Shown here one piece after another: positions 34,753 through 42,585 of a stretch of 64,000 bases of DNA (position 1 is the stretch's first letter; each line of letters begins with the position of its first letter). The translations under genes were made by a program, and so were the position numbers. This DNA comes from Clavelina lepadiformis (Eukaryota > Chordata > Ascidiacea > Aplousobranchia > Clavelinidae): NCBI RefSeq assembly GCF_947623445.1, contig NC_135246.1, positions 13,375,856 to 13,439,855 of the forward strand. Reading direction: 5' to 3'. A model generated the notes under the pieces. It saw only the letters and a list, made by a program, of their open reading frames with translations, searched no databases and was not told the origin of the DNA.

Positions 34753-35691
34753 TGGCAAATCATCTATACATTTGCCGATCCATCTATACTTGGCAATTCA
34801 TGAAGACGTTATGTGATTCATACGTACTTTTATAGAATCATTTAGTGCTTTTAGGAATGCATGTTTGTTTAATCACGTATGTATTTTGCAAATTGATTCG
34901 CCCATTTTTAATTCACGAAGACTAATTTCCAATCATTTGGCCATTTTATAATTCATGGTATAAGTTACATGATTCAAAAAACCGACATGTGATTAACAAA
35001 ACTGCAATCCGATTAAAGAAAATACCATTTGCCATTAGGCATTGTAACTTGCCAACAGCCAGTTTGCTTTGCAGTTGTTATATCTGACTTGAAATGTCGT
35101 GGTTTGATTTAAAAAATCAAGTTTATAAAACTGTGGTGTAATTGTAAATGTTGCGAAACCATTTTGATAATTGCCATATGAATCGTGCAACAGCAATCAC
35201 AGAAAAGACCGTTTGATTGCCGGCTTTGGCGTTTGGCTTGTTGTTTCGTGATTTGAATCTATAAAATTACGTTTGAAAACCTTCCAATCAAATTATGAAA
35301 ACAAAACATAATTTGCAAAGTTCCCATTCAATTTAACATTTTGCTATTTTTGCGGCGTTGGCGTTCCATACTGTCATGGTACAGTATCTGCGAATGTTTT
35401 AGTTGTCTCGAAACGTTTAAATTATTTTCCTACCTGCCTCTAGCCTCCGATTATATCGAAATAACGCATCAACTAAAATAAGATCAAACACCCCTAATAG
35501 TTTACTTGCGTTTTCGTAACCAGACCACAAAAGAAACGAGACCAAACACAACTGCTGGGCGCTAGCACCTTGTCTTGCTAACCTCTTCCATGTCACGTGA
35601 TATTTGTGACGTCACCTACCGCTATTAATCTCAAATCAGCCGGGGTCCGATTTACACCACTTTCCCCTGTTGTGAGGATATTTCAGTTAAT

Positions 35692-36067
35692 CAAAGAGAT
35701 TTAAACACATGAGTAGAAACTTCTCTTTTGCGCATGACGTCATGTTTGTTTCTTTTATTCTCTTGGAGCATATTCTACTTTCTCCACGGTCACGGTTCAC
35801 TACATAACAATAAACATGCAGACGACGACAATGATTTTCAGATCTGTTTGCTGCTGGAACAGATTAGTCTTATTATTAGGGTGCAGTTATTGGGATCCAT
35901 TGGGTGTTAATTTTAATTGAAATTAATTATTGAAATCAGGTGAGAGTTTTAGGTTCAGCAATTAACTTAGTTTCAGTTCCTTGAACTGATAATGCTGCTG
36001 TTTTGTATCAAGGCATGACTTAGCCTACTTGAGTTGCGCGGGAAGATTTTTTCGTTCACCACATTTA
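35692..36067. repeat. Left terminal inverted repeat of P-like element
   Basis: Matches 41560-41934 in inverse orientation with few differences. It includes a subterminal block (35869-35940) that recurs in diverged form at 36161-36236, just where the first exon of the plus-strand gene begins. A frame of 60 codons inside the TIR is present at both ends and is not considered a gene. Confidence 0.85.
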
Positions 36068-36203
36068 TCTTCGACCAGGCAATTAGCAACTAAACTCATT
36101 ACTCATTAGCATAGGCCTTATGTTGCAGGTGTTGTGTCATTAAAATAGGCTACTGAAAGTCTGATTTCAGATCTTGTTATTGTGGTGCAGTTGTTGGGAT
36201 CTA

Positions 36204-37420
36204 ATGGATGTCAACTTGAAGTTAATTATTGAAATAGATTGTGACCCAGAAGACGATGCAGCAAACTTCATGTAAGATACGATATGCCTATTAATCAATT
36301 AGCCAACTGCTGTTGAGCTTGTCCTGTATGGCGGTCACCCAGAGTGTACGTTCTCGCCAATTTATAATAAACAGCCAAGCAAAACAACAAATTAATGTAA
36401 GTCGTAACGAGTATTTGAAGTAATACTGTACTGATATATTGATGTCATTTAATCTGATAATGAAAATATTTATTTGCAGATGTGGACAATGTTTGCATAA
36501 CTGCACAAGTAATGAAACTTTGCTGGCTCATCAAAAAACTGCTCACGGTATATTTGTTTTTTGTTTGAAACTTATTTCATTTTGAGCTCTATCATTGGCA
36601 GATTCCGATTAAAAAAATCAAACAAACTTAATTTTACACTTGTCTTGCAGAATCTTCTTGCAATAATGTTACAAGAGAAAAGCTGATGGAATGGTGGGAA
36701 ACAGTGGGTGGCGTTAAAACAGATCTAACTGCAGATGCGGTTAACTATTTTATGAAGCTATTTTCTTCGTACAGTTCACCGGATGAACTGTTTCATAAAT
36801 TCTCCTGTGATGGAATTACGTGCATCCCATCACTATTTTTCTTGCCAAGAAAATTGTCACTATGTTTAACACGAAAATTGTTTGATGTATTTTTATCACA
36901 CGTTACCACTGTTGCACACAACAAAAAGGGGAAACACTTGACATTACACAAGTTAACCCGAGACGAAGAATTCATAATTCAGTACATAGGTGGTTATATT
37001 TTGCAGAAACTCACTAAGCGCTGTATAAATCCGAGAGAAATAGATCTATTGTCTTGTTTAACTGATTATAGTAATGAAACCACTAATAGTTCCTTGATTT
37101 CCGCTTTAAATAATAACAATTATGGACATCTTACAGTTCCAGCAAAATCACTAGTGAAATTGTTGATGTATGTAGAAAGTGTCTTTAGGAAACAAGACAT
37201 AAAGGAGCACATCATGGAAAGTTGCATGTCTTCTTTGAGTGTTTGTAACATAAAAGATATATTTGAAAATCTTGTTTTTGATGAATGTTTGCAAAAATTG
37301 TGCATGAAAATATGTAAATTTTACGTGAAGATTAGATGCTATCAAAAAGCCAATCATTTAAATTCAGTACTGCATGTAACCTCTGATCAAAATGTAAGTC
37401 TGAGAAAATCATTAAAATGA
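36204..37420 (+). CDS. C2H2 zinc-finger companion protein of P-like transposon
   Basis: Three exons (36204-36271, 36480-36547, 36651-37420) with good splice signals join to 906 bases, 301 residues. Residues 24-45 form a canonical C2H2 finger (C-x2-C-x12-H-x4-H: ICGQCLHNC ... LLAHQKTAH). Around residues 150-165 lies DEEFIIQYIGGYILQKL, which resembles the (A/G)GY(I/V)-(x)RKL block found in many transposon-derived proteins. A basic tail (KFYVKIRCYQKANHLNS) follows near 265-285. The frame is fully open although the transposase next to it is broken. The start (MDVNLKLIIEI) is chosen because it gives an in-phase exon ending at gtaaga. Function is not known; a DNA-binding accessory or regulator of transposition is an inference. 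Confidence 0.7.
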
Positions 37421-37527
37421 ATGTACATTACATAGTTGTCTTCTTACATGTACTTCGTCAGTTTTAGCTCAAAAAGGATTAAGTGTTACTGTATTGTAAG
37501 CAGACTGTCAAAACACTCGAAATCAAG

Positions 37528-40500
37528 TTATTTTTTTCGCTTCGGCATTGGATCATCGCAAACATCACCATGTTTCCAGTCAATAACGTGATTTACATTT
37601 GACCCCTTAAGTGACTTGATATTCTTTTTGCACATTATCACATTTTCAAATTGTGCATATTGGTGAATATCAGGCACTTCATTTCGACGGCCAGTTTGTC
37701 TCATATGACCGAAATAGGCCTCCAATGGGTCTTGGTTTAAGCGCTTAGTTAAGACGTATGAACCTTCTGGGCTGTTCTCCAACAAGAATTTCACCAATTC
37801 AGCAATGGCCATGGATGTGGAAACTAAACCGTCGTAGGTTTGATGGCTCAGAAACTGCTTTGACTGTTCGGAAACGGACCCAGTTAAACTGCTTTACCAT
37901 TGTTTTAACTCTGAAAGGAATGTATTAAGCCATTTCAGACGAGGATCATCAATCGTTGTATATGGTTTCAAGTCAGGGTTGTATGAATAATTTAATCTGG
38001 TGTTCATGAGGTCAAACCACTTATTCATCAAACCAGCAAACCACGCACTCATCTTCATTTCTTCTCCACCACGACTCTTCATTAAACTGGAGACAGTTCC
38101 AGAGAGCAATTGTGCGGCATAGCAAACCCGCATTTTTGCGTAACTCTTATGGGAAAAATGGCCATCAGTCAACTTGCAACTTCTCAACTCTGAACTTTCA
38201 AATAGGTAGGGAACATGGCAAAAATGCTTCCACAAAATGAAATGTTGATTGTACTTCATCATTCTAGCTCCACCTGGACGGCTGGATCTCACACAGTTAC
38301 AGGCTGTCTTCAGCAAGTGTGGAGGGTCACTAATCAAATAAATAGGCATTTCTGGCTGATAAATATTAATGCACTTGTAGGGGACGGTCAAATTGGAATT
38401 ATTGAGCAATTGGAACAATTTTCGATTGCAGGATGCACCATCAGCAACAAGTGCTAAGACTGTAAAACCACATCCGGCCAAGGATTCAACCACTTCCCAG
38501 AACATGCTAACCAAGTGAAATGCCTTTGTATTCTTGGTGGCATAAAAAACAATAGGCCGGGAAAAATTGCTGAGGATACTCCTACCATAAAATTGTAGGG
38601 CATGTGTGGCAGGAGCTTCATTATTGTATTGTCTGTCGACACCCAGATCAACAAATCCTATTATTCGGTCTGTTGCTGCATTATACACAATATTTTCTTT
38701 CACTGTAAACAAAATAAGCAACAGGTTATATCTTGTGCATATACAGTTAATAACTTGTGTCATTGTTTTGTCATAAAGCATGAATAAGAATCTTACACAG
38801 TGTGATTAATAGTGTTAAAAATTCCAAGAAAAGTTTCACCTTTCATTTCATCGATTGATATAACGAGAAATCGTTCATGTGATGCTAGACTGAGACTTTT
38901 GGATTTCAGTTCTTCTAAAACATTATCTTGAATGCCAGGTGCAGTGCAGTAAACGTTTCTGAAAACAGTACAAAAGTGAGCAAGTGAAACAATTGCTCGT
39001 AGTTAGCTTGTAGTAGCCAAATTGCAGAGAACAGAACCCATACGCTACCGATAGTCATTTAGGGTACGTGAGCTTGGTAGTCGTAAAATGCCACTTTGTC
39101 GTAATTCTTCATAGGCGCTTTTACTTTTAGCAGCTAGACTCAAACAGAACTTATAAAGAAAATTGCAAGGGTTGATTTTAGCACGCTTTTACGAAATAAA
39201 CAAAAATTGAGGTCAACTGAACTTAGTTACTCAGTAGTAGTTCAGTTCTGAACTTAGTAGTTATTCAGTAGTTTATTACTCAAGGAGACCTAAACCTACT
39301 TTATTAACTCAGGGTGATATCTTTCCCCATTTCTTTTCATACTATTTAGCTTTTGCTGCTCTTTCCAAAAGATTGAGTAGAAGTTATCAATTTTATCCTC
39401 ATCTTGAGCTAAAAAAATGTATGATATTAACGTAAACTTCACAAAAACACACGACACAAAAAGACTGAGTTATATGCATTGTGTAGGTGCATCACATTAC
39501 ATTTGTAGCTTCATTGGAATAGTTATAAGTAACATATTCTGGATTACCAGCTTTGTAATCGGTATGATACCTGCTTTAACAATGGCTGTCATGTCATCTG
39601 ACATAATTTTATCTACCTCCACTTGCACCGTATCATCAGCTAACAGAGTCGAAACCTTAGCTTCTAATTCTCTAATGCTAATAAAGAATTACTTCATAAC
39701 AACAAGACTATCTTAAATAATACTGTTTTATTTCTATCTTCTGGCATTGCTCAATCTACATATAGTTAAGTGTAAAAAGCACAGCTACTGACACTGACAA
39801 TCTTGCGAATGAGACTATTACTAATAGGATTACGAAGTGCAATATCACCAAATTTCATTAGCAGTGAAGGTGGAGGTAATTCGAGATGGTAGGTTAAATG
39901 TTGGCTGCGCTGATCGTTTTAAAGGTTGATCTTTAACCATATGGTAATAATTTAGCCTTTTCTGGTTGAGCCGTCCCTCCTTTTCATCTACACTACAACA
40001 ACTCCTGCACTGACCACTTTCCTTGAGAAAAAGTTCACAACTTGCATTTCTAACAACAAGAAATTTGGTTCATTTAACAAGAAAAGTCACAAAATATGCC
40101 TAAGATACTGTGTACACTTTAAGTGCAATGCATTATCAGTGTTACCAAAAATAAGTAAGTATATGGTCACTAGCAGCATGCCATATTGACCCGTTACCGA
40201 CATACACATAGGCTTATACATATGCTTGTTAACAACCAGTTCGCAGATGTCATTAAAATTCCAAGAACCGGTTCGCACAAACCGGCTGAATCCCACCACT
40301 CTATATGATTCATTCAATGTTAAATAATGATAAATTTCATTTATGTAACAAATGCAATAGGCACAATTGAAAAACTAGTTTCACCTGTATGCAAGTTTCC
40401 TAACCGTTGGTGCATTTTCAGAACTGAATGGTGTCATAGATTTGGTGGTCATGTGTGGCAGGCCACTTCCAGAACTATACAATCCAGAACATATTGAAAA

Positions 40501-41377
40501 CGATTCAATATCTTTTATGGTGCCGTGTAGTGTTTGAGTAGTTATATCCAGGGAGTAAATACAACTTGAGCGAGGTGCTTTCCAGCCATAATAGCATATC
40601 CTTAATGACATGTCATATAATACTCCAATCGAGTATTTAGGTTGATCACAGCCATCATAAAAAGAAAAAACAAGATTTTTGTTTTCAAATGACCTCTGCC
40701 AACCTTCCGGCAAGCGAGCAGATTTCAAGGACGCAACAGATTTGAAATGTAATTTTGTTTCAAAGATACGCTTCTTCGGCGGCTTTCTTGAATGTACCTG
40801 CGCCAAAGTCAGCTTAGGCAAAGACAAAGTGGGTACTGCTCCTTCACGTAATTCTTTACGGGAACCCTCTGCAAAAAAACTCTTATTTGTGCATACATGA
40901 ACATTTTCAATTTTGATACTTGTAATGGTACATATATTAATCTGAAACCACAGTGAAGGTTTGCACTAATAGCTTGTCACAGATGCAGTGTTATGCTGTG
41001 CTTACTCGCTAGTAAATTTAATGAAGTTCTGCATCAAACCATCTCATGGAAAACAAACACTGCATCAAACGCTAGATATGCCATTACATTAAATATCTTT
41101 CCTCAATACACTAGTTACACTGCATGTAAGTCTATGTAGAACAAATTTTACTTAAAACAATGTCAGATCTTTCAAAATGCACTTCACACATTTTCACAGC
41201 ATCTCGAGCAAATAGATTTTTTATGTGCTCGTCGCTTCTGCAAGCCAGCACGATACACTCCAACCTTTCTGCCCAGCTTTCCTTCTCCTTTTTTACAAAT
41301 TTTCTCGAAGGTATCTTAAACAGAGTCACGGCAGGTGACCTGTTGTTGCACATTGGTAAACAGCACAAATTTGCCAT
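37528..41377 (-). pseudogene. THAP-domain P-element-like transposase with premature stop
   Basis: Exons: 41152-41377 (THAP zinc finger: CCLPMC, W, MCEVHF), 40385-40868 (THAP AVPT box, EGAVPTLSLP), 39571-39671 (coiled coil, ELEAKVSTLL), 39300-39408 (YHPELIK), 39049-39149 (FCLSLAAKSKSAYEELRQSG), 38840-38958 (VISIDEMK, likely first catalytic Asp) and 37528-38702 (LVADGAS, ISDPPHLLKTACN, then RLNQDPLEAYFG). About 770 codons if continuous, the usual size for the family. It is broken by an in-frame TAA at 37894-37896, upstream of the DPLE acidic residue, and the junction of the fourth and fifth exons is one base out of phase. A truncated protein might still bind DNA. The family call is firm; inactivity is inferred. 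Confidence 0.85.
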
Positions 41378-42585
41378 TATTTCAGACTATTTAGCTTATT
41401 TCAATAACTTAAAGCCTGCAACATAAGACCTGTACTATTGAGTCTTAATCTGTAAAGTTTTTATTCTGCGCGTGGAGCGAAATTTTATGCGCAGATGAAA
41501 CAATACAATATGACTCGGTCTATCTAAATTTTTCATCCATTCATTTTATTTTTCACCTTAAATGTGGTGAACGAAAAAATCTTCCCGCGCAACTCAAGTA
41601 GGCTAAGCCATGCCTTGATACAAAACAGCAGCATTATCAGTTCAAGGAACTGAAAATAAGTTAATTGCTGAACCTAAAACTCTCACCTGATTTCATTAAT
41701 TAATTTCAATTAAAGTTAACACCTATTGGATCCCAACAACTGCACCCTAATAATAAGACTAATCTGTTCCAGCAGCAAACAGATCTGAAAATCATTGTCG
41801 TCGTCTGCATGTTTATTGTTATGTAGTGAACCGTGACCGTGGAGAAAGTAGAATATGCTCCAAGAGAATAAAAGAAACAAACATGACGTCATGCGCAAAA
41901 GAGAAGTTTCTACTCATGTGTTTAAATCTCTTTGAGTTAATCTATACTTTTTGCTTATACCTATCTATGTGAGCACCAGCATGGACAAGAAATTCTACTA
42001 CATTGTAGTGATCCATTTGACAGGCAATCCATAATGGAGATATACCATCCTAAAAACAAATTTCATCGCAGAATAAGTGACAGGTCAACGCAGTGTAACT
42101 TGGTTCAAATTTTGCTTAACATTGAAATTTAGCACATATGCAATGTATTAACAAGTGTTGTAAAAGTAACAAAACTTCCTGTTTGACATTTTGTTGTTAC
42201 ATCCCTCCTGCGATTTATGTCCGCACGTTGGTGCTCTAACACTTTTACAGTTTCCACATGCCATGAACGTTGGTGACGTCTTATCTTCAAGAGATAAGTT
42301 TACATTTGCCCCTTTCGAATATAGCAATTCCACAATATTGTTAAAACTCAATTGTGACGCAGCTGAAAGAGCCGTTTCTCCATTCTTTAAAATAAACGTC
42401 ACTTCTCAGCTACAGTAGCATAAGTAAATGGATATCTCATAATCGTCCTACTACAGCAGTCGGCTGTTATTAACTTACGTGATTTTGGTCGTTTATTGCA
42501 GCACCCCCACGTTTATCAGTAGATTAATAATTTTGTACAAGCCACCTTAAGATGCCAGATAAAGCGCTGTACACCCAGTCTAAAT

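Follow-up and report, generated by a model that had tools for sequence, protein, structure and literature searches.

The window, a 64,000-nucleotide stretch of the genome of the ascidian Clavelina lepadiformis, contains a P-element-like transposon with two convergent genes, as the original prediction had proposed. The element spans 35692-41934 (6,243 bp) and is bounded by 375-bp terminal inverted repeats (TIRs), whose arms match at 368 of 375 positions, and by a 7-bp target-site duplication (TSD), AGTTAAT, on both sides; the predicted coordinates hold. Gene 1, on the minus strand, is a THAP transposase gene as foreseen, with eight exons rather than the seven first given. Splice sites and translation confirmed that gene 2, on the plus strand, has three exons of 301 codons plus a stop, and the 107 bases noted between the gene ends are the distance between the two stop codons. 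The gene 1 product ends after its RNase H domain, while the C-terminal half of the gene 2 product is a homologue of the C-terminal domain (CTD) found in one-gene P and THAP9 transposases. The features of the element, including the helix-turn-helix (HTH) exons, are as follows.

35685-35691, no strand: left TSD, AGTTAAT (sequence reading)
35692-36066, plus strand: left TIR, 375 bp (inverted-repeat comparison)
36204-36271, plus strand: gene 2 exon 1, acidic N-terminus (splice sites, translation), with an IEI motif common to the second family
36480-36547, plus strand: gene 2 exon 2, C2H2 finger C-x2-C-x12-H-x4-H, ligands kept in the second family
36651-37420, plus strand: gene 2 exon 3, helical domain (about 36653-36910), CTD-like part (about 36923-37417) and stop
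37528-38702, minus strand: transposase exon 8, remaining RNase H, GTP-binding insertion, RNase H end and stop
37894-37896, minus strand: in-frame TAA disrupting the window transposase (translation)
38840-38958, minus strand: transposase exon 7, first catalytic Asp (IDEMK; alignment to 6p5a_A)
39049-39150, minus strand: transposase exon 6, second HTH part, acceptor AA in the window copy
39300-39408, minus strand: transposase exon 5, first part of HTH (splice model, Pfam)
39571-39677, minus strand: transposase exon 4 (splice model)
39849-40049, minus strand: transposase exon 3 (splice model)
40385-40868, minus strand: transposase exon 2 (splice model)
41152-41377, minus strand: transposase exon 1, carrying the start codon and the larger part of the THAP domain (splice model, Pfam)
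41560-41934, minus strand: right TIR, 375 bp (inverted-repeat comparison)
41935-41941, no strand: right TSD, AGTTAAT (sequence reading)

Domain content of the two genes

In a copy that lacks the defects of the window element (L009), the eight exons of gene 1 yield an 840-residue transposase; exon 8 is given above as it reads in an undamaged copy, other copies having a 425-codon frame there. The window transposase is broken twice, by the TAA and by an exon 6 acceptor that reads AA, a site that is AG in 17 of 17 other aligned copies. Pfam recognized a THAP domain at the N-terminus (PF05485, 33.1 bits, cut-off 23.9), a P-type HTH (PF12017, 23.3 bits, cut-off 23) and, above their cut-offs, the N-terminal part of RNase H (PF21787, 96.1 bits) and the GTP-binding insertion (PF21788, 32.7 bits); the C-terminal RNase H motif (PF21789, 15.2 bits) fell below its cut-off of 24. 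The product aligns to residues 137-552 of 569 of the Drosophila P transposase chain 6p5a_A (E 3.5e-20), and its IDEMK, VADGA and LNQDPLEAYFG motifs line up with Drosophila FDEMK, VSDLG and LNQDIVEHFFG, which contain the positions that we take to be the three catalytic acids. The chain ends about 40 residues beyond this alignment, that is, after RNase H, and so lacks the CTD that canonical P and THAP9 transposases carry in the same chain. By its sequence, gene 1 encodes a P-superfamily transposase with THAP, HTH and an RNase H domain holding a GTP-binding insertion.

Gene 2 is open in the window copy. Its 301-residue product runs from an acidic start through a C2H2 finger in its own exon and a helical domain of about 85 residues to the C-terminal part. 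The helical domain (36653-36910) is present in both split families and was modelled with a predicted local distance difference test score (pLDDT) of 61-89 per ten-residue block; Foldseek found no fold match for it in the PDB when given the exon 3 model built from split sequences (best E 3.0).

The C-terminal part was compared with the CTDs of one-gene (fused) P transposases of the same genome, in which the module after RNase H has a GY motif and, later, G-x-L-x-x-P. A profile of three such CTDs, containing no split sequences, matched gene 2 of the window (domain E 8.5e-8) and gene 2 of the second family (E 7e-4), and gave no significant match on the window transposase strand (best E 0.13); these E-values refer to a small set of six-frame translations. 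With hhalign, the pair of gene 2 proteins scored 45.3 against the fused CTDs, a value reached by none of 300 shuffles (maximum 25.3). Against whole fused transposases the pair scored 32.4, its best place was the CTD, and none of 150 shuffles reached this score (maximum 24.0). The window protein also matched the fused relative L056 by blastp (25% identical over 168 columns, E 1.3e-5 for one subject), with a score of 42.9 compared with a maximum of 20.8 among the 298 of 300 shuffles that scored at all. The CTD of L056 in turn resembles Pfam THAP9_C (E 1.1e-4, 22.3 bits, cut-off 24).

Modelled from an alignment that included fused rows, the window CTD reached a pLDDT of 76 and a predicted template modelling (TM) score of 0.73. 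Foldseek placed 6p5a_B at the top of 350,542 chains (E 2.5e-3, probability 1.00, TM score 0.73 by target), with a runner-up at E 1.0 and probability 0.06. Used as a profile against PDB sequences, the same alignment also found 6p5a_B first (E 0.0036), as did a profile of fused sequences only (E 0.12). We infer that 6p5a_B is the CTD of the Drosophila P transposase from its sequence and from the end of chain A at RNase H. Profiles, blastp and modelled fold together indicate that the C-terminal half of gene 2 is homologous to the CTD of P and THAP9 transposases, a domain that the original prediction omitted in describing these systems as THAP plus an RNase H-like nuclease.

Copies of the element and a second family

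Genome places are labelled C1-C9 after the large contigs of C. lepadiformis, the window lying inside C7. The left 375-bp repeat has at least 41 full-length matches, and one of 336 bp; the count includes both ends of copies and is a lower bound, with 40 of 116 candidates scored. We sampled 31 further copies (L009-L039), making 32 with the window copy. At their 31 paired ends the TSD is 7 bp in 28 and 8 bp in one (L015), and is absent in two (L027 and the outer pair of the nested L029), so that 29 of 31 combine TIRs with the 7-8 bp TSD of the P superfamily. Three more left ends had no right end inside the examined stretch. Long matches are mostly 97-99.8% identical to the window copy (94-98% for L027) and internal deletions are frequent, from which we conclude that the family moved recently. 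The window element is a genuine transposon, one among many in this genome.

Two long adjacent copies (L033 and L034, C8:17837500-17850800) carry GTCTGAC at and between their ends. The window element itself is adjoined by minus-strand ankyrin-repeat coding sequence (41951-42049 and 42151-42405; Pfam Ank, 31.7 and 21.9 bits), and by eye its insertion point falls just within an intron of that gene.

Six of the 32 copies retain the full set of eight transposase exons, and in two (L009 and L031) these are open. All gene 2 exons are present in 23 and are open, with splice sites, in 15; L025 was counted as not open for no stated reason. Genome-wide, exon 3 of gene 2 gave 88 matches, 25 of which run from residue 1 or 2 to residue 256; 20 of these contain no stop (one has a short in-frame loss) and five do. 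The concern that other copies might lack the plus-strand gene is answered by these open frames, and capture of gene 2 by the window copy alone is ruled out, as other copies carry it and so does a second family. No host-gene source was seen among the family 1 copies and L048-L052, the part of the 88 matches that was inspected, and a distant host relative may still exist among the remainder.

Within family 1, the ratios of nonsynonymous to synonymous change in gene 2 were 0.42 for shared differences (10 nonsynonymous, 6 synonymous) and 0.76 for private ones (36 and 12), leaving out one multi-step and four stop changes. For transposase exons 1, 2 and 8 they were 0.29 and 0.50, leaving out exons 3-7 and two multi-step and two stop changes.

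The second family is represented by L048, a diverged element with the TSD GTCACAC, whose repeats came up as a 31-bp match and measure about 29 bp. THAP and RNase H exons lie on one strand and a second gene on the other, with the stop codons 139 bp apart; a decayed copy (L049) and a deletion copy (L051) have the same gene order. Its transposase is 61% identical to that of family 1 over the matched stretch and its second protein 35%. Common to both second proteins are the four finger ligands, the intron phases on either side of the finger, and a terminal LRKSLK; the finger of family 2 scores 22.7 bits with Pfam zf-C2H2, below the cut-off of 25.2. Between families, the proportions of differing nonsynonymous (pN) and synonymous (pS) sites were 0.44 and 0.83 for gene 2 and 0.29 and 0.87 for a transposase exon. 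We give no ratio because pS is saturated, but protein-changing sites are held back in both genes. Of the purifying selection that the original prediction looked for in the 301-codon gene, the ratios within family 1 give a weak signal. Read by eye, the exons that would encode the HTH and first catalytic acid of the transposase appear to be missing from L048, and we therefore do not regard it as complete. A 144-bp inverted repeat (about 76% alike; L048:2523-2843) lies where the HTH exons would be expected.

A transposase probably divided between two genes

The Clavelina element belongs to the P superfamily by its catalytic core, THAP, HTH, repeats and TSD, and departs from the one-chain organization of P and THAP9. 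It shares with the Drosophila P transposase (6p5a, 6pe2) the THAP, HTH, RNase H with GTP-binding insertion and aligned catalytic acids, together with a helical CTD whose fold is matched by the gene 2 model. The Drosophila element, however, is described as one gene for one chain, with 31-bp TIRs and an 8-bp TSD (PMC7776569), whereas in Clavelina the CTD lies in an opposite-strand gene that also encodes a C2H2 finger and helical domain, between 375-bp TIRs and a 7-bp TSD. Vertebrate THAP9 and zebrafish Pdre2 are likewise P-type transposases with the CTD within one chain; 13-bp TIRs and an 8-bp TSD are reported for Pdre2 (PMC10983969). Long TIRs with a 7-bp (sometimes 8-bp) TSD are already known from Galileo, a P-superfamily element of Drosophila, for which one transposase-encoding segment is described (PMC4168063). 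Closer to hand, the one-gene P-like elements L053, L040 and L056 of Clavelina have the P-type core (L053 also THAP) and a CTD homologous to gene 2, but carry it downstream of RNase H without leaving the open frame. Five places (C1:10967738, which is in L053, C4:3181863, C5:23016847, C9:14579836 and C6:9138941) have an open frame of 860 codons that joins THAP, RNase H, GTP-binding insertion and CTD in a single protein, apparently a second, young, one-gene P family of this genome. Searches for relatives of the gene 2 pair in viral_contigs, and of the transposase in genome_contigs and viral_contigs, found none; as animal DNA is scarce in these collections, the result says nothing about other animals.

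We consider it probable that this is a cut-and-paste transposon of the P superfamily whose transposase is divided between the two convergent genes. Gene 1 would supply the catalytic chain, made up of THAP, HTH and RNase H/GTP-binding parts and ending before the CTD, and gene 2 a protein with an acidic N-terminus, a single C2H2 finger, a helical domain and a P/THAP9-type CTD. The division of domains, the copy number and the conservation in a second family are the demonstrated part of this reading. In the Drosophila complex, the CTD is described as tethered by a disordered linker, as lying between the RNase H of one subunit and the GTP-binding domain of another, and as contacting both transposon and target DNA (PMC7776569). 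A domain held by a disordered linker is one that can be detached. We propose that the gene 2 protein would dock in the same place, between the RNase H and GTP-binding domains, joining the gene 1 dimer and acting in trans as the CTD does in cis in Drosophila, and that the finger would give it a further hold on DNA, either that of the transposon end or that of the target. A possible parallel is the assembly of HIV-1 intasomes with excess integrase CTD protein (PMC11281638). Going further, we lean slightly towards an obligate two-component P lineage, in which a catalytic chain lacking its CTD and a separate zinc-finger CTD subunit come from two convergent genes flanked by matched repeats.

Both genes start just inside the near-identical 375-bp repeats. 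Diverged inner-repeat sequence lies beside both start codons (36172-36235 and 36079-36164 with 41382-41469), and the start codon of gene 2 is inside one of these pieces, as if the TIRs had formerly extended to both genes. Given this arrangement, the TIRs may serve as matched promoters of the two genes; the repeats of family 2 are just about 29 bp.

Several observations weigh against a divided transposase. Only L031, one of the 32 copies, is open in both genes, and family 2 yielded no full transposase. The within-family signal of selection is weak, and synonymous divergence between the families is saturated. Set against single fused proteins, gene 2 gave hhalign E-values from 0.0012 to 0.13, with L053 matched best at the wrong place. 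The CTD model and the PDB profile match both rely on an alignment that contains fused CTDs, and for the latter the best single domain of 6p5a_B reaches only E 0.96. When the fused rows are removed, neither gene 2 alone nor a two-family profile finds 6p5a_B, and the exon 3 model is poor (pLDDT 49) and has no fold match. Finally, a genome scan with Pfam THAP9_C gave five weak matches, none above the cut-off and none at any gene 2 copy; it is evidently insensitive, because it missed L056 as well.

Alternatively, gene 2 might encode a regulator, a CTD-plus-finger protein that acts on transposon ends or transposase to repress or tune a CTD-less enzyme working alone. Shortened regulatory proteins are described for P elements (PMC7776569), and gene 2 is kept open more often than gene 1 (15 against two of 32 copies). 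Gene 1, however, covers about three times more DNA, so that deletions would strike it more often anyway, and its want of a CTD in both families is easier to explain if the domain is needed and supplied elsewhere; we regard the regulator as unlikely. It seems improbable that gene 2 is an unused passenger, derived from a piece of a host gene or of another P element that became trapped in reverse orientation. A source for the CTD is at hand in the one-gene P elements of the same genome, and protein-changing differences in gene 2 are weakly constrained within family 1, but exon 3 remains open in most full-length matches, and layout, finger ligands and intron phases persist in the second family, whose protein is 35% identical; between the two families pN is well below pS.

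The original prediction compared gene 2 with the second DNA-binding protein of Harbinger elements, and the conservation of its finger between families could be counted in favour of an unrelated accessory protein whose likeness to a CTD arose by chance. We judge this highly improbable, since about half of the protein matches a transposase CTD by profile and modelled fold, although the finger and helical domain could still lend it an accessory role beside the CTD. The Harbinger helper is Myb-like rather than a transposase domain; Pfam scans of both families gave no Myb domain for gene 2, and gene 1 has a P-type core. PIF/Harbinger belongs to a different transposase family, and resembles the present element in that mobilization is reported to need two element-encoded proteins (PMC2836001). 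What survives of the earlier proposal, that the second product assists or regulates transposition, is the direction given by its first half, assistance; a divided transposase gives that product another nature, largely the enzyme's own CTD on a separate gene.

In the literature, covered mostly as titles and the beginnings of abstracts and exclusive of repeat databases, we found no two-gene P element, and a precedent is possible. To our knowledge, P transposases have been treated as single-chain enzymes, and the role of the CTD is known mainly from one structure. The natural split makes that role directly testable in excision, target capture and strand transfer. If our proposal is correct, the transposon would have gained a second DNA-binding specificity with its catalytic chain untouched, and end recognition and target handling would be free to evolve apart.
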